A DNA stretch of 64,000 nucleotides, taken from NCBI GenBank assembly GCA_916048095.2, contig OU696587.1, positions 4,118,493-4,182,492 of the forward strand. Direction: 5' to 3'. Origin of the DNA: Sacculina carcini (lineage: Eukaryota; Arthropoda; Thecostraca; Sacculinidae). The notes under the pieces are model-generated. The model was not told where the DNA came from, did not search any database, and was given only the letters and a program-made list of their open reading frames with translations. Made by a program: the position numbers and the translations under genes. Shown piece by piece: positions 29,730-54,547 of this stretch; the stretch's first letter is position 1; each line of letters begins with the position of its first letter.

Positions 29730-30598
29730 TGTAGTCTTGATTTCTTCTGATAGCACCCGTTTGTGGTCACGGTGGTGCTTCTCCTCGCGATTCTTGTGAT
29801 AGTCTAGATTTGTTTTCCCAATAGCTCGTGTTAATAACTCTCCCCCACGGAGGTCTGCCGGTCCGGCTTGTTGAACAAACGTAAACACTGTATTTGTCAA
29901 CAGCAGCAGCGTAGCGATGCGATATCAAACAACACACGGACGATAGTGGTCACACAGCCCAAACACAATGCACGATCGACCAAGCCACAAGGCTCAACAC
30001 GAGTAAACGAATAGACAATAGACCAGACCAAAAACTCTCGAGGACCAAGGTCCAAAAGAACTCCGTAAGACCTAACCCGAAAGACCTAGAGAATCGCCTA
30101 CCTGTCTCTTTTATGCGACGCGCGACGGTCAACTGAGGCAGAGCTAGTGCAAGCGCGTACCTATGCTCCTCACCGGCTGGTTGGTGTTAGTTTCCTCGTA
30201 AATCTCTGACTAATCTTCCCCGGGTGGACAAATTTGGATTCCCTGCTATTGTTTTTGTCGGTTAACCTACTCATCGAGCGGGTAATAAAATTCTCATAAA
30301 GTGGTGTGATTTCTCTGGACGCTCTGGTCAACACGTGTTAAGCGGGAGACAAGTCTGGGGTTGACACATTTATGTGAGATGAATTTATGGCCCCCGCATT
30401 CCTTCACGCGCGCTAGCTGCTTGCAGTAGCTCGTCGCTGTCCGCCACGCGCTCATATTACATGCTGACTAAGCATAGGCGTGCGGGGTTGCCACGCTTGT
30501 TGGGATACACACAGATACGCTTAACAGGCAATTATATAATTAGCTTTTACACACAGAAATAAAGCAGAATAAATGAAGCGAGAAACATCTCTGCTACA
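29730..30598 (-). repeat. 5' LTR (869 bp)
   Basis: Same ends as the 3' LTR. It contains the promoter side of the element. A TATATAATT stretch read on either strand lies near 30,535, a possible TATA box. Confidence 0.9.
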
Positions 30599-31807: not shown

Positions 31808-33346
31808 TTAACACGAGACTGTGCCTGGGAATTTTTTAGAACAAAAATTGTTCAGTAAAATATTTACTGAAGTCCAAATAATTTTCTCGGTGATATTCTT
31901 CATATCATGTGCTGAACAGAATGGTTCATTAAACTCTATGGCATGATCCTCAATCATTTCTAAGCAATGTGAAATATCAATGCACCGTTGGTCATTCGAT
32001 GTCAGAAAATCGGAAATACAAACACATGTATTTACTGTTAAATAACAAAGCATGAAAATATCCACTACTACATCACCGGGATAGAACAAACACCCACGAT
32101 CAATGCCCTTCACATACGAAAAACGGTATGCTTGGCAATTCTCGTCGGGTGCCACAAGAAATTGCTTACAGGCCGAACAATTTGACCTCCGAAGAACTGA
32201 AAAACAGAAATAACCCCCAGTAATAATGTAAATAACAGTAATAATGAATTTCCGAGGAGCGTCCCGCACATAGTCAGAATCCCAGTCAGGAAGATTTGAA
32301 AAATCTACTTGGGAAAAGTCCACGTGATTATTGGCAATGAGGAGCCTCAAATCGGTTACACTACGGACTCTTATTTTGTTTTCGCATTCAAAAATTTGCC
32401 TAGTGGATATACCGTAATTACAGCCGGATAAACGTCGATATTGGCCGAACCGATCTTCCATAAAATCGGTTTGGAATTTGCCAGGCAGAACGTACAACAT
32501 TCCCAGTTCATGAATACAGAGTTTAGTGAGTTCACTTAGGGCGTACGTTGTGTGATGAAGCGCCGAAAATGTTTCTTTCGTCAATCCCACCATCGCATTG
32601 TTTGAGTTCCAATAATCTGGCCACTGCAAAAATTTGTCAAGAATTAAATACCTCGCATCGTTTTCTGAATCTGTTAGCGGATGACAATACATGTTATTTA
32701 ACCGTTTGCCCTTATTAAGTGTCTTAACATTGCATATTGTCCACCATCGTAAGAAAATGCTTACAAAATGTGAAGTTCCTTCGGCGTACTCTAGTTGCTT
32801 ACTGGAGCCCAGAGATTTAAGCGCTTGAATCACATAATCACTGAAATTTTTCAGAACGCGCTTTACATTTTGACGTTCTAAATTGGAAGGGTTTACAGCT
32901 TTCACTGTTAGGCCATAACCAAACTTTACCAAAGATTCTGACTCGACAAATTGCAATTTTCGAATACTTGTGAATGATGCCACAATGAAATTATCGGTCA
33001 ACGAGAAATGCGGATAAATGAAGGCCTTCCTAGAGTCCTCTATATTCAGCCAGTTATTCCGTACACATTTCAATATATGCACAGTATCGAATAGAAAAAC
33101 AAGCGGACGATCGGAACAAGACGGATGTTGGTACACAATCGAAAGACCGGGAGGACTGCGGAACAATGACATTGCTTTGCGATTTACAGAATTGTTATCC
33201 GTTATTACTGATATTACCATGAATCCAAGTTGTTCCAGACGTATGATAGTTTCACGAATGAATCGGTGCAAAACATCGCCTTTCAGTGCTCTCACCGGCA
33301 ATATGTGCACTACGTCGTTGAATTTACTCAGAACACTAGAGAACAC
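31808..33346 (-). CDS. P-element (THAP9-type) transposase, THAP domain missing
   Basis: An uninterrupted minus-strand frame of 512 codons. Recognisable blocks in order are MVISVITDNNSVNRKAMSLF (about residues 43-62), VFLFDTVHILKCVRNNWLN (about 82-100), the WWTICNVKTLNKG and CHPLTDSENDARYL insert (about 208-240), and MEDRFGQYRRLSGCNYGIST (about 316-335). It ends in a cysteine-rich tail with CSACKQF. These match P-element and THAP9 proteins: a GTP-binding insert in an RNase H-like core, which cut and paste DNA. The usual N-terminal THAP zinc finger and coiled coil are absent, and hAT sequence begins at about 33,400. It may be a truncated copy or have an upstream exon. The open frame makes it the least decayed transposase here. 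Confidence 0.85.
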   Translation of the reverse strand: MFSSVLSKFNDVVHILPVRALKGDVLHRFIRETIIRLEQLGFMVISVITDNNSVNRKAMSLFRSPPGLSIVYQHPSCSDRPLVFLFDTVHILKCVRNNWLNIEDSRKAFIYPHFSLTDNFIVASFTSIRKLQFVESESLVKFGYGLTVKAVNPSNLERQNVKRVLKNFSDYVIQALKSLGSSKQLEYAEGTSHFVSIFLRWWTICNVKTLNKGKRLNNMYCHPLTDSENDARYLILDKFLQWPDYWNSNNAMVGLTKETFSALHHTTYALSELTKLCIHELGMLYVLPGKFQTDFMEDRFGQYRRLSGCNYGISTRQIFECENKIRVRSVTDLRLLIANNHVDFSQVDFSNLPDWDSDYVRDAPRKFIITVIYIITGGYFCFSVLRRSNCSACKQFLVAPDENCQAYRFSYVKGIDRGCLFYPGDVVVDIFMLCYLTVNTCVCISDFLTSNDQRCIDISHCLEMIEDHAIEFNEPFCSAHDMKNITEKIIWTSVNILLNNFCSKKFPGTVSC

Positions 33347-34894: not shown

Positions 34895-35615
34895 AATCTG
34901 GGTATCTCCACAACAACTCTATTTTATCAGTAGATTAATTCGAATTGATGAGAGAAAAATATATCATATAAGAGGTCGTGTTAAAAGATTAGACAGCTTT
35001 CATAGCTGGTTTTATAGAAAACAAGTGTGGAGTGTGTTGAAAAGAAACCAATCGTGTCAGTATATCTTTATGGAGAAGGCCAAATAATTATGTAAGCAGT
35101 GTAATGTCAGCTTGGATCAACCACATCTAGGCTTAGATGATTTGGCGAAACTTAGAAGCGTAGAAGCGTTGACATAATATATAGTGCATCTGTATTCGCT
35201 TAACGCTAATAATAAGAAAGTGTCATCATCAGGAAAAGGTAAAAAACATTTATATTATTTTTATATTTTTATTATTATTATTTATATATTTTTAGATATT
35301 ATTATTATATATTCTTTACATTTGTATTATTTTGAGAACCACTTTGTCCCCATTATTTCCATGAAGTCCTTCTTAAGTTGCTCATTTATGTGCTTATTGC
35401 CAAACAGGGTACAGTAGCGTAAATATTCATGTTTTTCCTAATTTATGTAGAAACTGGGAATCTGATTCACCAACATGAAAATCAATTCTATGTATTCTAT
35501 GTAATATTAAATTTATTTATAGGTGTTTCGATGGACACAATATCAAGTTATATAAGTCTCGTCAACGTTGCATACGCTGTAGTGAAATAACAAAAAGCGA
35601 TAATGTTAGAAAGAA
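34895..35615 (+). pseudogene. Family-B DNA polymerase relic (Polinton-like), N-terminal part
   Basis: Pieces align in order with the larger polymerase relic at 39.8-43.8 kb. VHLYSLNANNKKVSSSGKGK at about 35,185 matches NIYSLDANNKKVASVGHGTK. ISMKSF at about 35,360 matches ITSMKSF. RCFDGHNIKLYKSRQRCIRC at 35,523-35,582 matches QCFNHHQVKLCKNRQRCKKC, part of the cysteine-rich region before the exonuclease domain. Stops and an AT-rich insert interrupt it. The exonuclease and polymerase domains are absent. It comes from a related but distinct element, since the residues differ at about half of the positions. Confidence 0.8.
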
Positions 35616-36016: not shown

Positions 36017-36055
36017 GAAATGACGCTACCTCGCAATTACTAACAAATGTAGTAG
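36017..36055 (+). pseudogene. Tiny polymerase gene fragment
   Basis: GCTACCTCGCAATTACTAAC and flanks resemble GCTACCTCGCAATTACTAGC at about 40,116 in the polymerase gene, over about 35 bp. It is a third trace of the same gene. Confidence 0.5.
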
Positions 36056-36071
36056 TAAGAGTGGCAAAAAT

Positions 36072-36220
36072 CTATTGATTTTTTCCCCAGCGCCACCTAC
36101 CGGTCAGGTGTGTAAGTGAACTATTGATTTTTCCCCCTCGCGACGGGTCAGGTGTGTATTGATTTCCCCCCCCTCGCGACCGGTCAGGCGTGTATTGATT
36201 TTTCCCCCCACCCCCCTTTA
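36072..36220 (+). repeat. GC-skewed minisatellite
   Basis: Three to four units of 35-48 bp, each with TATTGATTTTTCCCCC, then CTCGCGACCGGTCAGG and TGTG. It lies just upstream of the first ORF of the Polinton-like element. Confidence 0.8.
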
Positions 36221-36268
36221 CTACCGATCAATACGTGTGTAATATTAATTGGACATTGTTACAAACAC

Positions 36269-36988
36269 ATGGTCGGTGTGGACACCGGATTGACATCCAA
36301 CACTGTTCGTGCAAACGATATGGAGGTGCAAAGCGGTGAGTTGACATTTGAAAATATTGTCGACAATATAATTTTTAACGATACGCCTGTGGCTGCAGTG
36401 GCGTCTGAACCACATATAATGCCTCTACAGTGCTACGAAATAGACTTTATCGATACCAATCATTTACCGGTACTGCAAGGAACTACAATCGGTCAACGTG
36501 TATGGGTAATCCTCGGAACTGTCTGGGGTGACAGCATTCGCAAGAATCTGAAGCGTGTGAAAAAACAGCTGGAGCAGTGTATGGATTATACGCATTGTCA
36601 CGACCCGTTCTGGAAAATCCGTAAGTCGTGCTTGAAAATATTCTACCAAGACGGTTTGATTCACATTCTTCTGGACACAGTGACCAATCGCAAAATGCGT
36701 ACCGACATTATCAACAAACTGTTTTCAACCTTCGAAATTCGTGTCAGACAAATTGTCCTGTCACTGCATGACGAAACTCTGATCTACTCTCCACCCAACA
36801 GTGGCAATAACAGTGGCAACAGTTCAGATCAACTAGTGTTCGTCAACGAGATTATTATGAAGACGTTTGCTGGAAGAAAACATTTCCGTGTACCTACAAA
36901 ACGCTACGAAGAATTCCAAATGAGTAAAACTGATTTGTTATTGACAGTTACCGCACACGGCCAGCCAGTCTACCGTAAGATCAAATAA
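36269..36988 (+). CDS. Polinton-like element ORF A, unknown function
   Basis: Intact 239-codon frame from the ATG at 36,269; earlier in-frame codons fall in the minisatellite. I do not recognise the protein. It has an acidic N-terminal third (EVQSGELTFENIVDN), a middle with a basic helix (SIRKNLKRVKKQLEQCMDYT) and two short Cys/His pairs (MDYTHCHD; KSCLKIF), and a short NSGNNSGNSS linker near residue 185. There is no membrane segment. It precedes the capsid-like and polymerase genes on the same strand, so it probably belongs to the same element. That it is intact while the polymerase has many breaks is odd. Possible roles (terminal protein, minor capsid protein, regulator) cannot be told apart by eye. 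Confidence 0.55.
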   Translation: MVGVDTGLTSNTVRANDMEVQSGELTFENIVDNIIFNDTPVAAVASEPHIMPLQCYEIDFIDTNHLPVLQGTTIGQRVWVILGTVWGDSIRKNLKRVKKQLEQCMDYTHCHDPFWKIRKSCLKIFYQDGLIHILLDTVTNRKMRTDIINKLFSTFEIRVRQIVLSLHDETLIYSPPNSGNNSGNSSDQLVFVNEIIMKTFAGRKHFRVPTKRYEEFQMSKTDLLLTVTAHGQPVYRKIK

Positions 36989-37252
36989 ATGCCACACTCA
37001 TTGCACAATACACATGTGTATCCATAGCGAAACGGATTCAATTTATCGAACACTATTTTTTCTCTCGTCTCTTCCGACATCCACCTACTGCTACACCTAT
37101 GTGCACGCACGTCAAACTTTGTATGTTTATGTGTGTGTTCGAAATAAAAATTTGATGTTTCAATACGTTCATGTAGTGAAAAGGATTGTAACTCATTTCT
37201 AAACAATATATTTTCACACACGCACACACACACACACCCAAACACATACAAA

Positions 37253-37705
37253 TTATACAAACAAGCGATGTATATCCTCGATAATGTTGTCCACATCTGG
37301 TGCGGGTGGTGGTGGCGATGGTGGTGGTATATCCATACCAACTAATATTTCCATTAAACGTTGATCGGTGGAATTCTCAGAGTCTGGACTTGAAGAAGAA
37401 GGTGGTCGATGACGGAGGCGTTGTCGATGTAGTCTGCGTCGTGTTTTGTAGCTCAGAGGCTGTATCCGCCCATCTTCCGACACCTTAGGTCGCTGTGGCG
37501 ACAATGACGAGTCCGTGCTGTCATCGTAATCTTCGTCACGTATCACACACATCTCTATAGGTGTCACCTTTGGATAATTTGTACGTTGGAAAGTTTTGTG
37601 GTTTTGATCGGTCTGTACAGCTTTATCTTGGGTCGAATGAGACCTATAATATGTTATTTGCGGTTCTCCTTCCTCTACAAATCGTAGTTTTATATTCAGC
37701 TCCAT
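37253..37705 (-). CDS. Polinton-like element ORF B, unknown function, opposite strand
   Basis: Intact 150-codon frame on the minus strand, starting at an ATG at 37,705. It is hydrophilic: an acidic, Ser-rich stretch (DEDYDDSTDSSLSPQRPK) is followed by a basic one (KTRRRLHRQRLRHRPPSSSS), then a proline run and a short acidic and hydrophobic end (DNIIEDIHRLFV). It looks largely disordered, with a possible nuclear targeting segment. It lies tail to tail with ORF A. No family is recognised. A small regulatory or DNA-binding protein is possible, but this is a guess from composition. Confidence 0.45.
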   Translation of the reverse strand: MELNIKLRFVEEGEPQITYYRSHSTQDKAVQTDQNHKTFQRTNYPKVTPIEMCVIRDEDYDDSTDSSLSPQRPKVSEDGRIQPLSYKTRRRLHRQRLRHRPPSSSSPDSENSTDQRLMEILVGMDIPPPSPPPPAPDVDNIIEDIHRLFV

Positions 37706-37779
37706 GATTTAAGTCGAGACAAGAGGGCAGATATGTGTGTACTATAACTACAGAATATAGAACGTTCAACTCAGCGACA

Positions 37780-37847
<68 letters not shown>

Positions 37848-38340
37848 GTGAACCATATAGCCTAAAGCAAAATTCACATTGCTCTATTTCCCTAATAACA
37901 CTATTCAAGCCTAGTCGACACACACACACGCACACACCTACACACACACACACACACACACACTATGTCAGGATGACCAGGTGTACAATGCGTGCCAATA
38001 CGGATGGAAGGGTGTCCGCACACATTGTGTCACCCTAGAGTGTGTTGCGTATGTGTTATGCGTCTGGAAAAAAACCAGATGCTTAATTGACAGAAACTAC
38101 TGCAGCAGCTTGACCCATACTGTCATGTGTTGTTTGTTAATTGCACACACACACACACACGTACACACACACACACACCTACACACATACATACATACAC
38201 GTACACATACATACACACACACACATACACACACGCACACACACACATCTCTGTCAGGATGACCAGGTGTACAATGCGTGACAATACAAATGGAAGTCGG
38301 TACACACACGCGCGCACACACACACACACTGTTTACGTAT
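37780..38340. repeat. TA and CA microsatellites with a 45-bp direct repeat
   Basis: A (TA)n tract lies at about 37,782-37,846. CA-rich tracts lie at about 37,918-37,962, 38,142-38,245 and 38,300-38,330. The sequence GTCAGGATGACCAGGTGTAC and its continuation (ATGCGTG...ATGGAAG) is present at about 37,967 and 38,254. Frames through the tracts are artefacts of simple sequence. Confidence 0.9.
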
Positions 38341-38395
38341 AAATTTTTCAAAAAAGTATTAACACCCTTAGTATGTATCAAACGTTCATGGAGGA

Positions 38396-39549
38396 ATGTG
38401 TGATTTTTATATTAATATCCCTAGTGTGAGTTCACCAGCAAACTACCCTAACAACACCACAGCTAACTTCAGAGTCGATTTACCACACAGATTAGAATTG
38501 GAGGTGAGGAAATGGAAAGTAGCACTTGTATCATTGCTAGTACCTGAAAGGCAAAAGGAAATACACAATAGAGGTGACACCAGATTATTGCGTATTAGTA
38601 GTAACATCATCGAAGAGCAAATAGTTGGAAACAAACTTAAACAACACTTTGGAATAGTACGTGTTAGAAAACAAAAAAACATACAGGAGATAAATTTCAA
38701 ACCTCCACATTACTACCGTCTAGCCCATTCATCTATTGATACAATCCACATAGAATTAACAGATATCAACGAACAAAGTTTTCCATTTATTACAGGACCT
38801 GGACTTATCGTAGTGTTACACTTCAAACAAGATATGACAGATGATTTCTACATTACGCTTGATAATTTGACAAGTATGAACATATTCTACAACAATACGC
38901 CTTCCAGTTTCCATGTCAACTTCCACATACACTTAAATTGGATCGTTCATGGCGTGTAGGATTATCAAATATAGCATTCACCAATGCATTTATGAATATC
39001 CACACTAATTTGAGAAACATAAATGTGGGTGGACATGTGTACCGTATTCCTGAAGGGGTATATCGAAGGAAAAATATTCTTTGTAATACAATTAATGGGG
39101 TTGTTGGTAAGCAAGTATTCACTATAGAGAAAAACAATCATACAACATGCCATATTGAAGATGTGGAAGTGCATCGGAAAATAGCTGATGTTTTTGGATG
39201 GTTCAGGGAATGGAACGATGAATATACTCGGCCGAACAAATCTGTATCAAACACTAATGTTGATATACACCGATTAAATCCCTCATTTATATATGTATAT
39301 GTAGATAAAATTAAAGCACAAATAGTTGGTCATACTCTAGCCCCAGTTTTGAGAATCATTTCAACCTATGAAGACGATAAATCGTATAACACTCTTTATC
39401 TACAACGAGCATTTAATCCTGTACGGTATGTAGAGCTGGAGACTGATGAATCTCGGGAAATGAGTGTCGATATTCGTGGTGCTGATGGGGAGTTGGTGAA
39501 TTTTGTTAGTAAATCTACTAGAGTTACTTTACATTTTGTGAAAAATTGA
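38396..39549 (+). pseudogene. Polinton-type structural protein (F54H12.2-like) with tandemly duplicated domain, one frameshift
   Basis: Two copies of one domain lie head to tail. Copy 1 (38,396-38,833) reads CDFYINIPSVSSP, YPNNTTANFRVDLP, LEVRKWKVALV, then EEQIVGNKL and IDTIHIELTDINEQSFPF, ending VVLHFK. Copy 2 starts at an in-frame ATG (38,834) and reads DDFYITLDNLTS, FYNNTPSSFHVNF, LDRSWRVGLS, then KAQIVGHTLAPVLRI and EMSVDIRGADGELVNF, ending VTLHFVKN. The motif order fits the uncharacterised F54H12.2-like proteins of animal Polintons, thought to be virion components. Copy 1 lacks about 75 residues between the two blocks. A one-base frameshift near 38,935 breaks copy 2. Copy 1 has a glutamine codon just where its C-terminus would be expected, so two genes may have fused by loss of a stop. 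Confidence 0.75.
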
Positions 39550-39822
39550 AAAGTTGATATTTAACATCGGAAACTTAGCTAAGTGATATTTTCACATATT
39601 TGGTGACATGCAACTGATGACAGCTGCATTTGCTACCTTACCGATATTTTCACATATCCGGCGACATGCAGCTGTAAACATTGTGTTTGGTACCTCTATC
39701 CACCACGGTGGCGCTGTATGTCGGTGCGTATAAATAGTGTAACTCGTTGTGCACCATTCATACATTGTGACTTGCATTGAGCTACACGGTGATTTCCTTA
39801 CGTTGACACTGCTTGACTCAAC

Positions 39823-42800
39823 ATGGCCAAGAGAGGTGTCGATATCAACAGCGACGAGTACGAGTCGACCCCACCGCAAGTGCAAAAGAAGAGTAAGATT
39901 ACTGTTCAACCAGGTGGGCCAAATAACGTAGATATCGGTGAAACCAGCTCAAATGAGCAAGTGATAGTCGACTACGAACTTGTAGAGACATACAATAAAA
40001 TAGTACGAAGATTCGGAATAGAAGGTAGACACTATATGTTAAAGTTGAATTTTAGTTTTGAAAATGAAACTTCTTTAACGGATATTTTCCATAAAATAGA
40101 TAATATTATGAATGTCGCTACCTCGCAATTACTAGCAAACGTATCAGCCAATAGTTATGTAGGAATCACAATTGACCACAGAACGTTTGACAGGTCAGCG
40201 TATATCGCATTCAGAAGACGATCGGAAATAGACGGTAACATTGTAGCTAGGTGCTTGGAAAAAATCTCGCAAAGCAATTCGACATATTTGAGCAATACGT
40301 CAGATCTGATTTTTAAAATTACAGTTATCAATGAAAATGACATGAATGACAGGGATGATATTAGAGGAGCAGGTGAAGGACGGAAATCTGTAAATTTCTA
40401 CCAATGGTATTTTACAAAAAATTGTTTCTTCAAACTGTTTGGTAATCTATGTCTACCACGAGCTATATTAATTAGTAAGGTCTTTAAAGACGCTGAAGTA
40501 GACAGTACAATGAAAGCAGAGTTGATACGTGTTCAACAACATAATATATCAGATAATCTATACAGAGAACAAGCTATAGAGATTTGTATTCGTGTAGGAG
40601 TTAATATAGAGCAGGATAGTTTTGGAATAAATGACTTAGAAAAGATAATGGAAGTATATCCAGAATATAGAACAAATATATATTCACTCGACGCCAATAA
40701 TAAAAAGGTAGCTAGTGTTGGACACGGTACAAAAAATCTTTACTTGTATCATTCCAATAAACATTTTGACGTAATAACTTCGATGAAGTCTTTTACCAAT
40801 TACTCATACTTTTGCGACAAGTGCCAAATTGGTTATAATAACAAGAACCATCATGAGTGTCCATATCTGTGTTGTAATTGTGGAGCAGAAAAAATAAAAT
40901 GTACAAGAATAAATGACGAACCATCGATACTTTGTAATAAGTGTAACATATATTTTGCTAACAGACAATGTTTTAACCATCATCAAGTGAAGTTATGTAA
41001 AAACCGTCAAAGATGTAAAAAATGTAGAATGTTGATTAAATCAAAAGTAGAATGGTCAAAACATGAATGTTTCCAACGAACATGTTATATATGTAATGAT
41101 AAGTACATCAAATACGACATACAATCCAAAGATATTAAACATCGTTGCTATTTACAACCTTTAGAAAAACGAGCATTGGACAATAAAACATACATATTCC
41201 TAGATTTTGAATGTAGATTAGATGAATCTGACGGTACGCATATCCCTAATTTTTGTATAGCACAGATGTGTTGTGCAGTATGTTACGAAACACCTGGCAA
41301 TTGTCATGCATGTTAAACCACAAAGTACGAGTATGTGTTTCACGGTCAACACACAATGACAGAAACCGGTGATTGGTTATTTCAACAGAAGAATTGTAAA
41401 GTATTTACCCATTACGGTCAAGGATACGAAACAAACTTTCTGATAAAGAACAGTCTCTCAAAATATCTAGTACCAGAAATAATTGTCAAAGGGACAAAAG
41501 TTCTAACTGCGTATTACCCAACACTTAATATCAGATTACTAGACTCATTCTCTTTTCTACCTATGGCACTTACAAGACTGAGTACCACCTTTGAAATACC
41601 TGTACGAAAGGGTTATTTCCCCCACAAGTTTAATACACTAGCCAACGAAAAGTATAGTGGTCCAATACCTGATATTGCAATGTTTTAATGTAACAGGATG
41701 TCGCCCAATGATAAAGCCAACTTCCTCACATGGTATGACCAACAGAGAAACAAAGTATATAATTTCCGATCAGAAATAGAGAATTATTGCAGGAGTGATA
41801 CATCATTACTACGTTTAGGCTGTATGAGGTTTAGAAAATTGTTCATCGAACATGCCAACATTGACCCTTTTGATAAGTCAATCACACTACCGTCAGCATG
41901 TCATCGGGTATGGATGACACATTTTTTGCAACCAAACACATTAGCGTTGATACCTTCTCATATTCATTACAAAAAACTTGTACTTTTAAAAATGTAAAAA
42001 ATATTCAGTAAAAAGTATTCAATGGCTGGATTGGGAGGCTAACGAATCACCAGGTGATCCCATACAAAACGCACTATCCAGCGGTGAAGTTGCTGTAGGG
42101 CCCTACCACGTTGATGGGTATAGGGTAATGGTAGGAAAACGTGTAATATACGAATTTATGGGTTGTTACTTTCATGGACACTCGTATTCAAGGCAATGTA
42201 AAATGTTTCCAGATGTATCTAGAAAAATGCACACTCTACCAAACAGTGACAACCTAACTTCAAAGGTGAAGTACCAAAAACTGTAGAAAAAATAAACTAT
42301 TTGAGATCTTTACCTAATTGTGACACAAAAATTATGTGGGAATGTGAATTTGATCAAATGATGCAAAACAATACTCAAATGTGTCAGTATATAAACAGTT
42401 GAGTATTCTAGAGCCTATGGATATAAGAACAAGTTTCTTTGGTGGACGAACTGAGGTATTCCAACATTATTATGAATGTGAAGAGGGTGAACAGATCAGG
42501 TATTTGGTCGTCACTTCTTTATATCCATACATTTTGAAAAATTGCGATTATCCAATTGGACATCCAGATATAATATATAAGCCATCACTTCATAAGCTAC
42601 ACGAATTTGATGGTGTGGTCTACTGTAAAGTTGTGCCACCAAAAACACTAAAAATCCCTTGTTTACCAGTTAGAATAAACAATAGACTCTGTTTCACTTT
42701 ATGTACAAAATGTGCTACAAACCATGTTGGTGATGGAGCAAATGTACGTTATAGAAAGGTTGAATGTTCACATTCGGATGATGAGAGGACATTGAAATCA

Positions 42801-43810
42801 AGTTGGGTGACACCTGAGCTGTTCAAAGCTGTAGAAATGGGCTACAAAGTGCTTGAACTGTATGAAGTCTGGACATTCAAGGACGAATCGCGATCTGAAG
42901 GTACAACATCAACAGGTCTGTTTACTGAATACATTAATAAATTTTTCGCGTTAAAAGTAGCAGCTGAAGGATATCCAAATGATATAACTGACACAGAAAA
43001 AAGAAGACTACAAGAGACTAATAGAAGATCACGAAAATATACAATTGCCAGAAATATAGAAAAATCCAGGGTTGAGAGCGCTAGCGAAATTGTGTCTGAA
43101 CTCGCAGTGGGGTAAGCTTGGACAAAATATCGCTCAAGACTCAACCGAGTTGATAACAACACCGGATAAACTGTTGAATATACTTAGAAATAAAAATATA
43201 GAAATTGTACACTGTGACCCGTTGCTGGATAGTTTAGTTCGTGTAACATATAGGTATGTGAACGATCAGGCTATACAAAGAAATAATAATAATAAGACAA
43301 ATATTATCATTGCAGCGTTTGTTACAGCTCAAGCGCGATTGTATTTGTACAGTTATTTGGATAAGCTCAATTATGAACAAGTTATATACGTTGATACTGA
43401 CTCGATATTTTTCAAGCATAAACCTGGTCAACCGAATATCGAAGTAGGAAGGTATAGGTGATATGACTTACGAATTAAAAGATTACCCTGACGGATCCTA
43501 CATCAGTACGATTGTCTGTTTATCCCCTAAAAACTACATATATTGTGTGAAAAAACCGGATAAACGGAAAGTTATGTAGTCAAAGTAAGAGGGATAACAC
43601 AGTGCTACATTAGACACATTGACAATTGATAATTTTAAAGAGCTCCTCACAGATCCATCTAAACATGTAAGTGTAAATACATACAGTTTTCGTCGTGATA
43701 AAAAATTCTCTATTAGAACAATAAACAGTAGTAAAATAAATAAAATGGTGGCTGCAAAACGTAATATCCTTCCCGACTTAACAACTCTTCCGTATGGATA
43801 TATATCGTAA
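39823..43810 (+). pseudogene. Polinton-type (protein-primed-like) family-B DNA polymerase, inactive
   Basis: The gene starts at ATG 39,823 (MAKRGVDINSDEYE) and ends PYGYIS at 43,810. Order: an N-terminal region, a long Cys/His-rich segment (CDKCQIGYNNKNHHECPYLC and on, about residues 328-450), Exo I (YIFLDFEC, 457-464), Exo II (THYGQGYETNFL), Exo III (ENYCRSD), polymerase motif A (LVVTSLYPYI), motif B (LCLNSQWGKLGQN), and motif C (VIYVDTDSIFF). Such enzymes replicate Polintons and some linear viruses. In-frame stops lie at 41,314 and 41,686. Frameshifts lie near 42,000, 42,398, 43,062 and 43,455, with more stops near 42,285 and 43,577. Motif A has valine where the metal-binding aspartate is expected. 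It is therefore dead by several independent changes. The Cys-rich segment is typical of animal Polinton-like polymerases. Confidence 0.9.
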
Positions 43811-43861
43811 ACACTATAGGTTTGCTTGAAAATACAAATATGTATATAAGCTTATATATCC

Positions 43862-44033
43862 ATGATAAAAAAATAGAAAAAATAACAATAATAATGAAGA
43901 AAAAAAATTGCAGCATGCACATATTTAAATAGTGGAGCAGGCCTACTGGGGATACCACTATAAAAAACACGCGTCGATGACCGATACCTCAAGGGTGACG
44001 TGGAAACTCGGTCCATATACATTGACGACGTAG

Positions 44034-44113
<80 letters not shown>

Positions 44114-44284
44114 CTACGTCGTCAATGTATATGGACCGAGTTTCCACGTCACCCTTGAGGTATCGGTCATCGACGCGTGTTTTTATAGTGGTATCCCCAG
44201 TAGGCCTGCTCCACTATTTAAATATGTGCATGCTGCAATTTTTTTTCTTCATTATTATTGTTATTTTTTCTATTTTTTTATCAT
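43862..44284. repeat. 423-bp near-perfect palindrome centred on (TA)n
   Basis: The left arm from ATGATAAAAAAATAG to the CACATA tract is repeated as its inverse on the right, ending CTATTTTTTTATCAT, with virtually no mismatch over about 190 bp per arm. The centre, at about 44,073, is a CA/TA/TG microsatellite. It lies between the end of the polymerase gene and the ATPase gene. It could be a foldback or MITE-type insertion, or a structure of the element itself. Frames within it are mirror images of one another and are not genes. Confidence 0.9.
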
Positions 44285-44315
44285 AAAAATAGTGATGTTG
44301 TGATGTTAGAACAGA

Positions 44316-44407
44316 ATGGATACGTATGATTGTCGATTACGTACACCGTTCACAATGGTGCTGGCCGGACCGAGCGGATCTGGAAAAAGTCAGTACATCA
44401 ATACTCT
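44316..44407 (+). pseudogene. Polinton-type packaging ATPase, first 30 codons, cut by LTR element
   Basis: From ATG 44,316 the frame reads DTYDCRLRTPFTMVLAGPSG and then SGKSQYINTL. GPSGSGKS is a Walker A motif, and the preceding PFTMVLA is the usual beta strand. A short N-terminus followed at once by this motif is what I recall of ATPases encoded beside F54H12.2-like genes in animal Polinton-like elements; such enzymes pump DNA into the capsid. The gene is interrupted at 44,408 by the LTR of the retrotransposon. The rest is not found in the window with confidence. Confidence 0.7.
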
Positions 44408-45276
44408 TGTAGTCTTGATTTCTTCTGATAGCACCCGTTTGTGGTCACGGTGGTGCTTCTTCTCGCGATTCTTGTGATAGTCTAGATTTGTTTTCCCAAT
44501 AGCTCGTGTTAATAACTCTCCCCCACGGAGGTCTGCCGGTCCAGCTTGTTGAACAAACGTAAACACTGTATTTGTCCACAGCAGCAGCGTAGCGATGCGA
44601 TATCAAACAACATACGGACGATAGTGGTCAAACAGTCCAAACACAAATCACGATCGACCAAGCCACAAGGCTCAACACGAGTAAACGAATAGACAATAGA
44701 CCAGACCAAAAACTCTCGAGGACCAAGGTCCAAAAGAACTCCGTAAGACCTAACCCGAAAGACCTAGAGAATCGCCTACCTGTCTCTTTTATGCGACGCG
44801 CGACGGTCAACTGAGGCAGAGCTAGTGCAAGCGCGTACCTATGCTCCTCACCGGCTGGTTGGTGTTAGTTTCCTCGTAAATATCTGACTAATCTTCCCCG
44901 GGTGGACAAATTTGGATTCCCTGCTATTGTTTTTGTCGGTTAACCTACTCATCGAGCGGGTAATAAAATTCTCATAAAGTGGTGTGATTTCTCTGGACGC
45001 TCTGGTCAACACGTGTTAAGCGGGAGACAAGTCTGGGGTTGACACATTTATGTGAGATGAATTTATGGCCCCTGCATTCCTTCACGCGCGCTAGCTGCTT
45101 GCAGTAGCTCGTCGCTGTCCGCCACGCGCTCATATTACATGCTGACTAAGCATAGGCGTGCGGGGTTGCCACGCTTGTTGTGATACACACAGATACGCTT
45201 AACAGGCAATTATATAATTAGCTTTTACACACAGAAATAAAGCAGAATAAATGAAGCGAGAAACATCTCTGCTACA
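44408..45276 (-). repeat. LTR (869 bp), same family as 27.3-30.6 kb
   Basis: Starts TGTAGTCTTG and ends CTGCTACA, nearly identical to the two LTRs at 27,291 and 29,730. It is the 3' LTR of an element lying to its right on the minus strand, inserted into the ATPase gene. Confidence 0.9.
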
Positions 45277-45830: not shown

Positions 45831-47400
45831 TTGTTTTGTTTTGTTTTAATTTTTTGTTTTTATTCACACCAACCAACAGGATGACATCCCAATTATAGGC
45901 GGAGTACACATAATACAATTCACGAAAGCGAATAGCAAATATAAGATTCTAAAACTTGGAAAAAAAAGAAAAAAAAGAAGTATATATATAAAGTCAATTT
46001 TAAAAACAGACTTTGCGAAGTGCAGAACGACTGACATTAAGGATGTCTATACCTGGCTGCATATTCACTAGCTTGTTGTAGTATAGAGGCAAGCGAGCGT
46101 GCCATATTCTACCAGTGACCACGGTGCGCGTTGGTGGTATATGCAGGGGGTCCCGGGGGCGCACACCTGGTCTTGGTACTCTCCATCCGACTCGTGACAG
46201 CAGCTGCGGAGAGTCGAGTCTGTTTTTCATTAAAGAATAAAGAAACGCGACGTCGAGCCATCGCCTGCGAATGTCAAGTGGTTGGAGGCCGTACATTGAG
46301 TGGAGTTCGGTGTGATTCATCTCGGTTCGATTGGCCTGCAGGTACTTGAGTGTGCGGAGGAATCTGTTCTGTATCAGCTGCAGCCTCTGTGTGTGCGTTG
46401 GTGCTGCGCCTGCCCAAATCACACTGGCGTACTCGATGGTCGACCGCACATTCGAACAATAGGCGGCAATCAGGCTTCGTGAGTCGAAGTTCCGTGGTAG
46501 ACCTTGCATGCATCTGGTGAGCACACCAAGTGAGCGATTGGCTCTGCGAGCGACGTCATCAATGTGTTGTGCAAAGGTGAGCTTGTAGTCAATGACGACC
46601 CCCAGGTCACGTGTAGTGGTCACCTTTTGCACTGTGTCGCAGCCTATCGTGTAGGTGAACTCAACTGGCTTCTTTTTCAGCGTGATACACAAGTGTGAGC
46701 ATTTTGCAGGGTTCAGTTTGAGACCCCACTTTTCACACCACTCACACAGAGTGTTGAGCTGCTCTTGCAGACTCTCACAGTCGTTGCTCGCCTTGACCGT
46801 CCGGAAAAGCTTTACGTCATCTGCGTATAGTAGTGCTGAGGTGCCCAATTTCTCAGCCAAATCGTTCACGTAGATGATGAAGAGGAGGGGGCTTAGAACA
46901 GACCCCTCCGGCACTCCGCTGGTTACCTGCGACCACGGTGATGACACTCCGTTCACCAGCACTCGTTGCCGGCGTCCCGTGAGATAAGATCTCAGTAAAT
47001 CATGTAGCGAGCCTTTGACGTCATACGCTTCGGATAGCTTGTGGAGCAGCATACGATGGTCAACACTCTGGAATGCCGACGAGAAGTCCGTGTATAGAAC
47101 GTCCAGCTGAGTTTTCGCGTCGATTGAGTCTCCGGCAAAGCTCACCAACGCGGCCAGATTGGTGACACAAGAACGCCCTGTGCAGAAACCATGCTGGTTC
47201 TTCGAAATCGCTGGCAGAACATGACTCAGCAGACGCGCCTTTACAATCTCCTCAAGTACTTTGGCAAACACAGGCAACAGGCTTATGGAGCGATAGTTAG
47301 TTGCCTGCTTGCGGTCACCCTTCTTTGGAACGGGGATTACATTCGCGTCCTTCCAAGTGCTAGGGAATTGAATACTTAAAGCTTTGATACACACGCTTAT
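45831..47400 (-). pseudogene. Jockey-like LINE, 5'-truncated, RT domain open
   Basis: A minus-strand frame (46,000-47,394; 464 residues, no ATG needed) holds RT blocks VIPVPKKGDRKQATNYRSIS, the FSSAFQSVDHRML region, VTSGVPEGSVLSPLLFIIYV and ALLYADDVKLF (catalytic YADD at about 190-193). It then continues to a C-terminal region with NRFLRTLKYL. The RT copies element RNA at a nicked target. The endonuclease and ORF1 are missing, as is usual for 5'-truncated LINE copies. The 3' end near 45,831 is an ACAAA-rich tail on the minus strand (TTTTGTTTTGTTTTAATTTT on plus). It interrupts the LTR element. Confidence 0.85.
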
Positions 47401-48984: not shown

Positions 48985-51475
48985 TTACGCAGGTGCTGCG
49001 CGCGGTTCTTGACTGTTCCTGTTCGGCCGTGTGCTGTCGTTCCGCACGGTCAGTGTGCCCGGGAGAATGAACGTGCCGAAACGTCTTGAATGCTGCTGCG
49101 GCGACGGCGGCGGTGAAATGTGCCGCACCATCGGCCTCTCGTTGAAGGTGACTCTGCGACCCGGTGGAGTTGACCTTGGTTGACCGCCGCGTAGAGCTGA
49201 TTGAGGAGACGGTGATATCGGTGCTGCGCATTGAGCCGGCCGTATAGATGGCGCGGCTGTTTGCGGTCGGAAGACATCTCGTTGCCTGGTTTGATTCTCG
49301 GCGAGCGATGTTGAGACGCCGGACGGAGCAGTCAGCTCTGTATGGGCCGGAATGCACCTGTCGATGGTGACTGTTTTTCGGCAGCCGTTGACCACGTCCA
49401 ACGTCTTGTCGTCACGTCGCACAACTCTGTAGGGGCCCTGGTACACATGATCCAGTCCAGTGCGTGCTTCAGCGCGCACAAACACATGCGTGCAGGAACG
49501 AAGAGCCGGTGGGACATACGAAGCCGTGGCTTGCACTCGAACGGGTGTTGGTCGCAGATGACGCATGTTGTACCTCAGGCGTTCGCAGAATGTCGCAGGC
49601 GAGAGCCTGGTTGATGCAGTAGGAACGACAAACTGACCCGGCAGACGAAGAGGCTCTCCTGTGACCAGCTCCGCGCTGGAACAGCCGATGTTCTCCTTTA
49701 CCGCGGCGCGAATCCCGAGGAGAACCAAAGGGAGCCGCTCTGTCCACCTCTGGCCGGTGCATGACGCCCGCAAGCTGGCCTTCAACTGCCTGTGGAAACG
49801 CTCCACCAGACCGTTGCATTGTGGGTGATAGGCGGTCGTTCGCCTCTTGTTGGTGCCGAGTAACGCCATGAGTCCAGACCAGAGGCGCGATTCGAACTGC
49901 GGACCTTGGTCACTGACGATCGACTCTGGAACTCCAAAGCGTGCGACCCAGTGCTGTAAAACCGCTTTGGCGACGTCTTCTGCCGTTGTGCGGGTCATCG
50001 GGATGGCCTCCGCCCACCGAGTGAACCTGTCAACAATCGTCAGAATGTACCTGTGGTTGTCCGAGGGCGGAAGTGGTCCGACGATGTCGACGTGTAGATT
50101 AGTAAATCTACCTGACGGCGGTTTGAAGGTAGCCGTTGGCGAGCGGGTGTGTCTGGTGATTTTGCTGCGCTGACATTGTACACAGGCGCGCACCCAGGTT
50201 TTCACGTCCTGTCGCAGACCCTGCCAGACAAAACGGTCGTCCACTAGCTTCTGACTGGCCGTCACGCCAGGGTGAGACAGGTTGTGAACCAAGGAGAAGA
50301 ACGGTCGCCTCAGTGCAGATGGCAGAACAGGCCGGCTTCGGCCGGTGGAGAAGTCACACCACAAGCTCCGTCCACAACTCAGCGGCACCTGTCGGAGCTG
50401 GAGCGAATGGGCGCTGCTGTTCACCAGTTGTTGTGTGTCCGTGTCGTTGTGCTGCGCCTCGGCTATGGAAGCAAAGTCGTCAGACTGCGGCACCGGCGAC
50501 GTGAGCATGTTGACGGTGCGCGACAGGGCGTCGGCCACCACGTTTTGCTCGCCGGGCATGTGGCGCACGTCAGTGGTGAATTGTGAAATGAAATCCAGGT
50601 GCCGCACTTCTCGTGGTGAGTATGTGTCTGAGCCGGACCCGACGGCGGCTGTGAGCGGCTTGTGATCACTGAAAATTATGAAGTGCCGGCCCTCCAATGT
50701 GTGCCGGAAATGGCGCATGGCGCTGTACGCTGCAAGGAGTTCGCGGCCAAACGTGCTGTAACGCTGTTCTGTCGGCGTCAGCTGGCGCGAATGAAACGCT
50801 AGAGGTACCCATGACCCCTTCACGTGTTGCTGCAGAACAGCACCGAGACCGCTCGAGGAGGCGTCAACTTGCAGACTGAGAGGCGCGCCGGCGACGGGAA
50901 ATGACAGCCGAACGACGTTGGCTAGTGCGTTCTTCGCGCGCGAGAAAGCCGCCTCTGTGTCCGCTGTCCAACTGACGGGCTTCTGAGACCTCTTGGTGCG
51001 TGTGTCTATTTGAGAGTGTAGTGGGGACAGTAAATCAGATGCGTGAGGCAGAAGCCGATGATAGAATGTGATCATGCCGATGAATCTGCGGAGCTGTGCC
51101 TGTGTGGTCGGACGCGGAAACGATTCGATCTCCATCAGCTTTTTGGGTGAGGGCGCAACGCCGTGCCGAGACAAATGGTGCCCCAGAAACTCGAGTTCTG
51201 ACACGCCGATGATGCACTTCGTCGTGTTGAGCTGTATGCCTGCGACAGTGAGACGACGCAGCACTGCTCGCAGGTGCCGTTCATGCTCTTCGATCGATTT
51301 GCTGGCGACTAAAATGTCATCGACATAAGCGAAGCAGCCGTCCAGTCCGCGCAACACCTCGTCCAAAAAACGCTGAAACGTTTGGGCCGCAGAGCGCAGA
51401 CCAAAGGCAAGGCGACGAAACTCGAACAAGCCAAACGGTGTCGTCACAGCGGTTTTGGCGATGTCTTCTTCAGCA
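48985..51475 (-). CDS. Gypsy G1 pol, 3' half (RT palm to integrase)
   Basis: An 820-codon open minus-strand frame. It starts in the middle of RT (TTPFGLFEFRRLAFGLRSAA) and includes the catalytic YVDD (residues 41-44), RNase H (SLQVDASSSGLGAVL, about 190), and integrase with its HHCC finger (LSHPGVTASQKLV to VRACVQCQ). The DDE core follows (LHVDIVGPLP; IVSDQGPQFESRL; NGLVERFHRQLKA), then a long proline- and arginine-rich tail. The frame is undamaged. Its 5' half (gag, protease, fingers of RT) is missing. At about 51,475-51,500 it joins directly to the end of a different gypsy pol, so the pair forms a chimera. Confidence 0.9.
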
Positions 51476-52267
51476 ACCGGTATGTGAATGGACCGGTACC
51501 TTGAATGGACCTTTGTACGGGGCCTCCAAAGGGCGCCGTATGCGATCCACCCTCAGCCAGACATGTGAGCAGGTCAAGAGATCTTGGGGTACGTATGACT
51601 GCGTCGAGCCATGACGAATTCCCTCTGAGTGGACACTGAAGTCGATCTCCGTCATGCGGTCTGCTAGCTCTTTCACGAACTCGTGTTGCAGTTTTGACGA
51701 GGCGTCCGGCTCCACGGTGACCTTGGGGCACATGAGCTGGCCGCCGGTAACTGCTGTGAACGGTGCTATGCCATTTGCGGACGGTATCATGCGGAGACCC
51801 AGCAGCACGACAGGTAACGCTGACAACCACTGCTGTCCTCTGGCGGTGATGGCCGTTTTGAGCACACGATGCGCCCTCTCTACCAATCCATTTCCCTGGG
51901 GATGGTAGGCCGTTGTTCGAAGCCGATGGAAGCCGACGATCTCTGACATCTCCCGGAACAATTCGGCTTCAAATTGCGGTCCCCGGTCAGTTATGATGTA
52001 CACTGGCACGCCGAACCGAGAGACCCAGTTCTCGATCATCGCTCGTGCCACGGACTTGGCTGTCACCTCCGTCAACGGAATGGCCTCCAGCCACCTGGTT
52101 GTGCGGTCAATACACGTTAACAGGTAACGATACGGGTGAGCGAACGGCTGACCTGGCGGCAGTTGAGGAGGCAGAGGACCGACGATGTCCATATGAATTG
52201 TCTCGAATCTGGCCGCCGCAGGTGAAGTGAAGGCAGAGACGGGTGATTTCGTGTGCCGCTGTATTTT
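51470..52267 (-). CDS. Gypsy G2 integrase core, truncated at its C-terminus
   Basis: After an in-frame stop at 52,268-52,270 the same frame continues. It reads HMDIVGPLPPQLPPG, VYIITDRGPQFEAELF and NGLVERAHRVLKTA, the D, D and E blocks of the integrase core that inserts the cDNA. It goes on to APYKGPFKV and then loses homology at about 51,500, where G1 sequence begins. The single stop, within CQQ-KIQRHTKSP, is the main lesion in the G2 pol. The G2 3' end and 3' LTR are absent. Confidence 0.85.
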   Translation of the reverse strand, partial: KIQRHTKSPVSAFTSPAAARFETIHMDIVGPLPPQLPPGQPFAHPYRYLLTCIDRTTRWLEAIPLTEVTAKSVARAMIENWVSRFGVPVYIITDRGPQFEAELFREMSEIVGFHRLRTTAYHPQGNGLVERAHRVLKTAITARGQQWLSALPVVLLGLRMIPSANGIAPFTAVTGGQLMCPKVTVEPDASSKLQHEFVKELADRMTEIDFSVHSEGIRHGSTQSYVPQDLLTCSHVWLRVDRIRRPLEAPYKGPFKVPVHSHTGC

Positions 52268-54547
52268 TTACTGCTGGCAGCTGACACACTCTTTGACCCA
52301 CCGGTGTATGTCGCTCTCCATCTTGGGCCAGTAGTAGCGACTCCGTACGAGTCTCACGCTGGATAATCGGCCAGGATGCGACGGCTGGTGCAGCATGCGG
52401 AACACCGGAAAAAGACACTCCGGAGGCAGGTACGGTCTGGGGTGCCCAGTAGACACGTCACAGAACAGACTGTGCTCACCGGATACAGGAAACGGCTTCA
52501 GGTACGGTTTCTGGTGAATTTCTGGATCTCCGACTTGTGCGGCGGCGATGCCTGGTAGGTCGTAGGCGTCGATCTCGACGCTGTTCACAGAGCGCGACAG
52601 GCAGTCGGCTACAACGTTGTCGGCGCCGCGTATGTACTGCACATCGCTGATATGTACGGTAATGAACGCCCAGTGGCGCTGCTGACGGTCCAGTTTGGCG
52701 GGTTTTTGACTGCGAAACGCGGTCACCAGCGGTTTATGGTCCGTCATCAGCGTCACGTGCCGGCCCTCGATGAAATGCCGGAAATGTAACACGGACAGAT
52801 ACGCCGCCAGCAGCTCGCGGTCGTACGTGGAGTACTTTCTCTGTGGATCAGACAATTTCCGAGAGAAGAAAGACACAGGTAGCGGTTTACCTTTCACCAT
52901 TTGGTGGAGAGCACCTCCGACAGCGTGGCCGCTCGCATCTGTTACCAGCATGAACGTCTTCGACTCAGGGTCAGGGTGTGGCAAAGTAACAGCATCAGCC
53001 ATTAACTGCTTACTTGCCTCAAAAGCAGCCTTGGTTTCTTCTGTCCACACCAGCGATTTCGCCTTGGGCTGCAGCCGCATCATCTCGGACAGCGGGAAGA
53101 CCACATCAGCGAATTGCGGCGTCATACGTCTGTAGAAACCGATCATGCCCATGTAGCGGCGGAGTCCAGCAGCATCAGCAGGCAGCTCCATCGAGGTCAG
53201 CGCCTCGGTACGATGTTTGGGTGGCGAGACTCCGTCCTGGGACACATGATGATCGAGGAAGTCGACCTCACTCACACAGAACTGGCATTTTTCTATGGAC
53301 AGCTTTAGTCCGTGTTTTGCCAGTACGTCGAATACCAGCTCCAGATGTCGCATATGCTCCTGCTCGTTCCGCGAAAAGACCAGCAGATCGTCTAGATAGA
53401 CAAAAACACATGATATGCCACGGAAAATAGAATCGATGAATCGTTGAAAAGTGGCCGCCGCATTCTTCAGACCAAGCGGCATGTAGACATATTCATATAG
53501 GCCAAAAGGGGTGGTCACGGCCGTTTTCTTACTGTCCTCGGGCGCCATCGGAATCTGATAGAAAGCTTTTAGTAGATCAAGCTTGCTGTATACGGTCATA
53601 TTACGTAGATTTGACGAGAGAGTGTGGATGTGCGGCAACGGATACCTATCGGGCACTGTCTTTGCGTTCAGTGCGCGATTATCCCCCGTCACTCGCCACT
53701 CTCCTGGAGCGCTCTTGGCCACCAGGTGCAGAGGCGACGCCCATGGAGAATTTGACGGCCTCACTATGCCTTGCTGAAGTAATTTTTCGAAGGCGTCTCT
53801 GGCAGCTTTCTCTCGGTCGGGCGTCAGTCGGCGTGGAGACGAGAACGTCGGCGCGGCACTGCCGGTATCGATTGTGTGCTGATACACACCTGATGAGAAC
53901 TGCAGAAGATCGTTCGGCTGGCGGGATGACGTCAGGGACGGGTTGGCGCTGAGCCGCTGGCGGACAGATGCTGGACAATCGCCAGGATACTGTACCACCA
54001 GGCCGCATGTTGTCGCCTCGGACCTCCGCAGCGGTGCGATGAAGTTTGTTGTTTGGTCTCGTAGCTTTCGTCCCCGGCAGTCCACCAGGAGACCATGATG
54101 AGCCAGGAGATCCTGTCCCAGCAGCGGCGAGACGACGTCCGCGACGACGAACGTCCACGCGAACTTTCGGCGCAGATTCACGATGATGATTTCGAGTTGA
54201 ACTTCGCCGTAAACCGTGATCGACTGGCCCGTGGCGGACGAGAGTTTCACGGCTGACGGCTGAAGACAGAACGGATTGATGTGTGCACGAGGTACAACGG
54301 AAATACCCGCGCCAGTATCAACCACGAAGCGGAAACGTTTGGCGGCGACCAAAACTGCGACTTCTATGAGTGGCAGGCCGACGGCCGCAGCGACACTGAC
54401 CTGCCTCTCTAGTTTTCCGCCTGCAGCGGATGCGGAGACGAAGCGCGTGAAGACGCCTGCATGCGCAAGCCATCCTTCTTGCCCGGCCACTTGCACCAGG
54501 GCTTGCAGGTGCGTGCACTGGAGCCGAAGTAGATATGCGCGCGGCAC
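52268..54547 (-). CDS. Gypsy G2 pol: protease, RT, RNase H, integrase finger
   Basis: A 759-codon minus-strand frame. The protease DTGA is at residues 77-80 (FRFVVDTGAGISVVP). RT follows, with SPWASPLHLVAKSAPGEWRV, the FYQIPMAPED block and catalytic YLDD (VFVYLDDLLVFS). RNase H has MLVTDASGHAVGGAL and the TDHKPL block. The integrase HHCC finger (PSHPGRLSSVRLV to VKECVSCQ) is the last part before a stop at 52,268. The frame overlaps the end of gag in another frame by about 140 nt, so ribosomal frameshifting would be needed. It is nearly intact. The copy at 445-2328 is a decayed relative. Confidence 0.9.
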   Translation of the reverse strand: MPRAYLLRLQCTHLQALVQVAGQEGWLAHAGVFTRFVSASAAGGKLERQVSVAAAVGLPLIEVAVLVAAKRFRFVVDTGAGISVVPRAHINPFCLQPSAVKLSSATGQSITVYGEVQLEIIIVNLRRKFAWTFVVADVVSPLLGQDLLAHHGLLVDCRGRKLRDQTTNFIAPLRRSEATTCGLVVQYPGDCPASVRQRLSANPSLTSSRQPNDLLQFSSGVYQHTIDTGSAAPTFSSPRRLTPDREKAARDAFEKLLQQGIVRPSNSPWASPLHLVAKSAPGEWRVTGDNRALNAKTVPDRYPLPHIHTLSSNLRNMTVYSKLDLLKAFYQIPMAPEDSKKTAVTTPFGLYEYVYMPLGLKNAAATFQRFIDSIFRGISCVFVYLDDLLVFSRNEQEHMRHLELVFDVLAKHGLKLSIEKCQFCVSEVDFLDHHVSQDGVSPPKHRTEALTSMELPADAAGLRRYMGMIGFYRRMTPQFADVVFPLSEMMRLQPKAKSLVWTEETKAAFEASKQLMADAVTLPHPDPESKTFMLVTDASGHAVGGALHQMVKGKPLPVSFFSRKLSDPQRKYSTYDRELLAAYLSVLHFRHFIEGRHVTLMTDHKPLVTAFRSQKPAKLDRQQRHWAFITVHISDVQYIRGADNVVADCLSRSVNSVEIDAYDLPGIAAAQVGDPEIHQKPYLKPFPVSGEHSLFCDVSTGHPRPYLPPECLFPVFRMLHQPSHPGRLSSVRLVRSRYYWPKMESDIHRWVKECVSCQQ

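Follow-up and report, generated by a model that had tools for sequence, protein, structure and literature searches.

A fused two-domain penton-type protein in Maverick/Polinton-type elements of the Sacculina carcini genome

The window analyzed here, 64,000 nt of Sacculina carcini contig OU696587.1, contains a degraded copy of a tandem gene (positions 38396-39549) that lies in a Maverick/Polinton-type element and that occurs in the host genome in more than 100 copies and four subfamilies (A-D). Overall, we consider that the best explanation of this gene, with a probability of about 0.6, is that it encodes a fused two-domain penton of a Maverick/Polinton-type, adintovirus-like endogenous virus, functioning as the vertex capsomer. 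The identity and the fused architecture of the protein are very highly probable. Given these, the mechanism that we propose by analogy, a vertex built in two tiers, is tentative and would attract slightly less than even odds.

The two halves of the gene are homologous. Using BLASTP with the database size set to 1 million, half 1 matched half 2 with an E value of 3e-7 in the sister copy L002, whose second half shares 94% identity with that of the window, and of 2e-12 in subfamily B. A profile based solely on 10 single-domain proteins from sources outside the host genome matched half 1 of the window (E = 3e-15 and 2e-13) as well as half 2 (E = 1e-4 over its first strands and 2e-6 and 3e-24 over the remainder). 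The same profile detected two domains in each intact host frame read. Thus, the alignments and the foreign profile bear out the tandem duplication proposed in the initial annotation, in which two ordered copies of one domain occupy 38396-39549.

The predicted model of half 1 was a confident fold, a penton-type jelly roll with both end strands retained. Moreover, half 1 and P0001, a single-domain homolog of half 2, structurally matched the pentons of mavirus and adenovirus. The possibility, raised in the initial annotation, that the halves do not share a fold is not supported: with half 2 represented by its relative, the models identify both as penton-type jelly roll domains. In fold, the single domain resembles the mavirus penton (6g41/6g42), the adenovirus penton base and chain 6ncl_a6 of Paramecium bursaria chlorella virus 1 (PBCV-1). 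Each of these proteins is known with one jelly roll per chain, whereas the chain described here has two domains. The foreign pentons were matched less well by domain 1 than by domain 2. Pfam contained no family for either half, and a PDB sequence search with the tandem alignment yielded no match. A PHROGs tail match to half 1 (E = 0.002) was set aside.

Fusion of the two domains is a genuine, old, and conserved feature. Scans of the host genome took in 264 Mb on 43 contigs and scored only the best candidates per search, such that all totals are lower bounds. Of 150 half-2 matches, 104 covering nearly the whole query were picked by hand and 46 partial ones were dropped. First-domain sequence was present directly upstream of 101 of these 104 near-complete second domains, the other three being masked (L018, L022, and L070). 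With a subfamily B query, a half-1 match was found directly upstream on the same strand in 92 of the 104. The gaps between the paired matches were 108 bases (67 pairs), 111 bases (22 pairs), or 110, 121 or 139 bases; they correspond to the part of domain 2 ahead of the query start and were in frame in 89 of the 92 pairs. Among the 12 loci with no B-query match, five belong to family A (L001-L005, some broken), and the foreign profile recovers their first domain. Four others retain first-domain sequence: L056 in pieces, L068 as 30-39 residues, and L020 and L069 as 24 and 16 residues, respectively, before masking.

Using the whole B protein as the query, 30 of 86 matches were free of stops from residue 1 or 2 to residue 495, as counted by eye in a list holding no subfamily C copies. 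Both domains were covered by a single open frame in two copies of A, one of D, and many of B and C. The two-domain frames were 384 amino acids in A (two near-identical copies), 495 in B, 495 in C, and 403 in D (one copy). The joints in A to D read LHF-KQD-M, LHF-RK-M, LHF-QR-M, and LHF-KRDTAPTNM, respectively, and in seven copies the codons after LHF were all sense: AAA-CAA in A, CGA-AAA in B, CAG or CAA then CGA in C, and AAG-CGT in D. The final strand of domain 1 (..GPG-x-x-L-x-LHF or similar) and the first of domain 2 are only a few residues apart. Domain 2 starts with a Met in the copies of A, B, and C that were read, but not in D. Complete copies therefore carry one fused gene, not two genes or a single domain, and the intact copies of all four subfamilies depart from the one jelly roll per chain of the Maverick-Polinton penton. 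Open frames of ~1100-2900 amino acids inspected near half-2 matches were runs of masked N, not polyproteins.

The initial annotation had inferred the fusion from the window copy; it is the other host copies that bear it out, as the window copy is broken. The span of 1154 bases is not a multiple of three and contains two open frames, 38396-38959 and 38938-39549. The frame of domain 1 runs into the start of domain 2 and reaches a stop at 38957-38959, the frame breaks near 38.9 kb, and the remainder of domain 2, to 39549, is in another frame. The frame break and the stop rule out a reading of the span as one frame. Two sister copies, whose second halves are 94% identical to that of the window, each have one open frame. 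The window gene is a pseudogene, a degraded penton gene copy in a right-truncated element. Other details of the annotation stand: the second half has its own ATG at 38834, and a CAA codon is present at 38828, where the first copy should stop. That this codon replaced a former stop does not follow, as the seven copies inspected, from all four subfamilies, are fused with sense codons after LHF. A recent stop read-through in the window copy is similarly ruled out by the fused sister copies and other subfamilies.

The halves differ in length: in L002, they comprise 145 and 239 residues. The gap in half 1 is a single block at profile positions of about 62-180. Specifically, half 1 of L002 covers positions 1-61 and then 181-261, the intervening stretch being almost empty, and L055, with an equal gap, covers 1-55 and 180-261. 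Central residues are thus missing from the first half, as had been noted, although the block is ~95 residues rather than ~75. This insert is absent from half 1 in subfamilies A and D, and the first domain is full-length in the B and C frames. Because the same block is absent in another subfamily, the missing middle does not reflect decay of the window copy. More generally, the absence of this block in D, the confident fold, and the constraint on half 1 in B and C rule out that half 1 is a decayed domain. Ahead of their last strand, the first domains of all four subfamilies share an FPF-x-x-GPG motif, which occurs in none of the second domains or aligned foreign pentons.

Phylogenetic analysis was performed using 32 rows of host halves and foreign pentons, with long branches flagged. 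The half-1 and half-2 rows formed separate groups, supported at 100/100 against each other; among all rows, support was 100/100 for the half-2 clade and 95/87 for the half-1 clade. As the rows form two separate clades, the pair is older than the four subfamilies. Subfamilies A and D were weakly grouped by the half-2 rows (84/54) and not by the half-1 rows, and the insert of half 1 may therefore have been lost once or twice. The ratio of nonsynonymous to synonymous substitution rates (dN/dS) was measured in B and C pairs, synonymous sites being saturated or nearly so between subfamilies and saturated for A and D. In one B pair, dN/dS was 0.19 for half 1 and 0.24 for half 2, the latter based on just 13 changes, 7 of them synonymous; in one C pair, the values were 0.45 and 0.30, respectively. 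These ratios indicate that both halves are under selective constraint in B and C.

Gene content and termini identify the elements as Maverick/Polinton-type: they contain a type-B DNA polymerase (PolB), an rve integrase, a packaging ATPase, and an adenovirus-type protease. In pieces of A elements, Pfam matches were to Pox_A32 ATPase (E = 4e-10), rve integrase (2e-12), and Peptidase_C5 (4e-8); the neighbour of a B copy matched DNA_pol_B_2 (5e-47). The adenain-type gene (Peptidase_C5) is present in both A and B elements. Two A copies of about 14 kb extend from AGTAGT to ACTACT and have inverted repeats that align over 204 and 189 bases. Vertebrate Mavericks, according to PMC8097293, have terminal inverted repeats with an (AGT)2..(ACT)2 end motif and a 6-base target site duplication. 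Inverted repeats with AGT/ACT-type ends were found in the two A copies, but their flanking repeats, AGTAC and CACAC as judged by eye, are of 5 bases, so we made no assignment to the vertebrate Maverick group. We describe the elements as adintovirus-like, with no further placement; adintoviruses are defined, in PMC11071296, by a PolB with an N-terminal OTU-like domain, a BLASTP-recognizable hexon, and a chromodomain integrase.

A further frame, present in all four subfamilies, is 384-479 amino acids long (in B it runs off the edge of the locus), with identities of 62-74% between subfamilies, and its product had no match in Pfam or PDB. Based on its position, we take it to encode a putative major capsid protein. 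The putative major capsid gene adjoins the tandem penton gene in those copies of B, C, and D that were read and lies far from it in A; a penton gene typically lies near the major capsid gene, as stated in PMC4028283.

Searches outside this genome listed 134 related proteins (14, then 120 of 603 matches, of which 115 were new, then 5). The two-domain form was found in none of the 129 relatives tested among the matches listed, ten of which had built the profile; this agrees with the earlier statement that only single-domain forms are known. The last five proteins were read by eye, including P0130, a 149-residue fragment too short to tell the domain number. P0130, from another source, aligns with the B protein at 55% identity across 30% of its length and is a subfamily-C-like near relative. 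Scans of viral contigs confirmed no relative.

In the literature, duplicate Pentons in two adintoviruses are reported in PMC11071296, as are Pentons with no DE-loop insert. The present elements are similar in having a penton duplication and an insert-less penton; they differ in that the adintovirus duplicates are not described as fused into a single chain, whereas in A and D the insert-less and insert-bearing domains are in one polypeptide. Similarly, they resemble elements with the Maverick/Polinton and adintovirus penton (PX) in penton fold, PolB, integrase, ATPase, adenain, and, in B, C, and D, the capsid-gene neighbour. They differ in the two fused domains, seen in 0 of the 129 relatives tested among the matches listed. 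No fused tandem penton in one chain was found in the open-licence papers searched, mostly as titles and abstract starts. Thus, duplicate and insert-less pentons are known, and the novelty is the fused pair in one chain, for which we did not find a precedent. The initial suggestion of a new capsid organization goes too far: because the elements retain a putative major capsid protein in all four subfamilies, the ATPase, and adenain, the change is one in the vertex protein.

A five-fold vertex normally comprises five single jelly rolls. In the proposed mechanism, the two-domain chain would form five-fold capsomers at the vertices. Domain 2, which bears the insert and is closest to ordinary pentons, would occupy the usual place of the penton base, and the compact domain 1 would add a second ring or tier. 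A223 of Sulfolobus turreted icosahedral virus (STIV) is described in PMC10551542 as a two-jelly-roll chain that forms the penton base and the first floor of the turret. As proposed here, it places two jelly rolls per chain at a five-fold vertex, one of them being the penton base.

The comparison with STIV, an archaeal virus, extends only to how such a chain may work and not to sequence. Several observations weigh against this explanation. The chain is known here from genes and single-domain models. Foldseek alone gave one half 1 match under an E value of 0.001, followed closely by unrelated beta proteins. So short a linker, of a few residues, is a poor fit to stacking if a jelly roll begins and ends at its base. 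In subfamily A, the gene precedes PolB, far from the putative major capsid gene. Of the 603 database matches, 483 are beyond those listed, and fused forms may exist elsewhere. Finally, half 1 and half 2 are not united in the unconstrained tree (backbone support of 16/34). Holding them together was not rejected (approximately unbiased test, p = 0.152), so that they may or may not be each other's nearest kin, and the duplication may be older or younger than the split from the foreign pentons.

Four other explanations were weighed. If two separate neighbouring penton genes were the working form, the fusion would be a product of decay, a stop having been lost in a pseudogene. The window copy is indeed a pseudogene, the copies read, apart from D, retain a Met at the start of domain 2, and two adintoviruses are reported to have duplicate Pentons (PMC11071296). 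This explanation is nevertheless largely refuted by the single open frame in many B and C, two A, and one D copies, by the frame kept in 89 of 92 pairs, and by the lack of the inner Met in D, and we consider it very improbable. Alternatively, adenain may cut the fused chain near the junction to yield mature vertices with two different penton subunits. The Peptidase_C5 gene of the A and B elements and the GPG kept before the last strand of domain 1 in A-D are in line with such processing, but a cut at GPG would remove that strand. Moreover, only subfamily A fits the presumed adenain site pattern; processing of this kind is unlikely. Equally doubtful is that domain 1 is a relic or folding aid outside the particle and that domain 2 alone is the penton. 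Although domain 1 is without the insert in A and D and is the poorer of the two in matching foreign pentons, it has both end strands and a confident predicted fold, and its dN/dS values (0.19 and 0.45) reflect constraint similar to that on domain 2 (0.24 and 0.30).

The remaining alternative is a capsomer resembling a double jelly roll, in which the barrels lie side by side and three chains form a pseudo-hexamer or five form a ten-barrel vertex ring. Two homologous barrels per chain, a linker of few residues, and the unequal halves of A and D, one insert-bearing and one compact, would suit it. Duplication and fusion of a single jelly roll has long been held to be the origin of double jelly-roll capsid proteins, according to PMC8812541, which argues that the step occurred in cellular proteins. 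The penton lineage would have repeated this step by duplicating, fusing, and diverging, with A and D losing one insert, to produce a side-by-side capsomer beside the old major capsid protein. However, the elements already have a putative major capsid protein and the single domains match pentons; such a capsomer has little likelihood, as does this history. The fused pair represents a natural jelly-roll duplication and fusion, in four subfamilies and >100 copies, whose homology is legible in sequence. By contrast, how the two halves of double jelly-roll capsid proteins arose is argued from structural evidence (PMC8812541). The symmetry adopted by a two-domain penton is now a testable question.

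Table 1. Features of the element copy in the window.
Feature	Position	Strand	Basis
Element copy	36051..44407	+	Piecewise blastn against five sister copies, of which four include the left end (AGTAGTA, 36051); ends of two sister copies
Conserved element gene, function unassigned	36320..36988 (open frame 36320-36985)	+	BLASTP
Domain 1, compact penton-type jelly roll with no central insert (predicted)	38396..38833	+	Profile match
Junction CAA codon in L-H-F-K-Q-D-M	38828..38830	+	Identical codon in two sister copies read
Domain 2, penton domain with insert (predicted)	38834..39549	+	Open reading frames, stop list, profile E = 1e-4, 2e-6, 3e-24
DNA polymerase B gene, several broken frames	39823..43461	+	Pfam DNA_pol_B_2

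The window element is cut on its right side at about 44407, probably inside the start of the ATPase gene based on a match to locus L032. The DNA_pol_B_2 pieces are at 41335-41688, 41698-41997, 42381-43115, and 43072-43461, the second and last being below the curated cut-off. The product of the 36320-36988 gene matched frames beside the B, C, and D copies (BLASTP E = 2e-20, 5e-25, and 1e-40, respectively); in Pfam, its only match, to Pox_int_trans, was below the cut-off. Just left of the element end at 36051, frame 35184-35417 shares 39% identity with the PolB frame across 70 residues (E = 6e-7). In addition, a piece there at 36019-36051 is 91% identical to 40111-40143. An older relative seems to adjoin or enclose the element. 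Between the PolB and ATPase genes, 43855-44291 contains two nested inverted repeats of 111-112 bases (97-98%) flanking an AT run, and pieces matching these repeats are also present in sister copies.

Elsewhere in the host genome, subfamily B penton copies occur as opposite-strand pairs. The members of one pair, C26:1706124-1707071 (-) and 1707076-1708017 (+), are four bases apart and both begin near residue 180 of the protein. Further pairs are at C20:7173196/7176429, C24:3359543/3361430, and C4:11579049/11591081. Such pairs are perhaps palindromic joins from folded-back or hairpin ends.

Finally, the window contains other repeats. The segments 30000-30299 and 44678-44977, one on each side of the element, share 300 identical bases and are probably two copies of another repeat. 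Mobile elements at 31808-33346, 46000-47394, 48985-54547, and 57146-59944 contain Pfam domains of a transposase with TNP-like RNase H domains and of reverse transcriptases. Beyond these domains, we take the reverse transcriptases to be of the non-long-terminal-repeat and long-terminal-repeat types.
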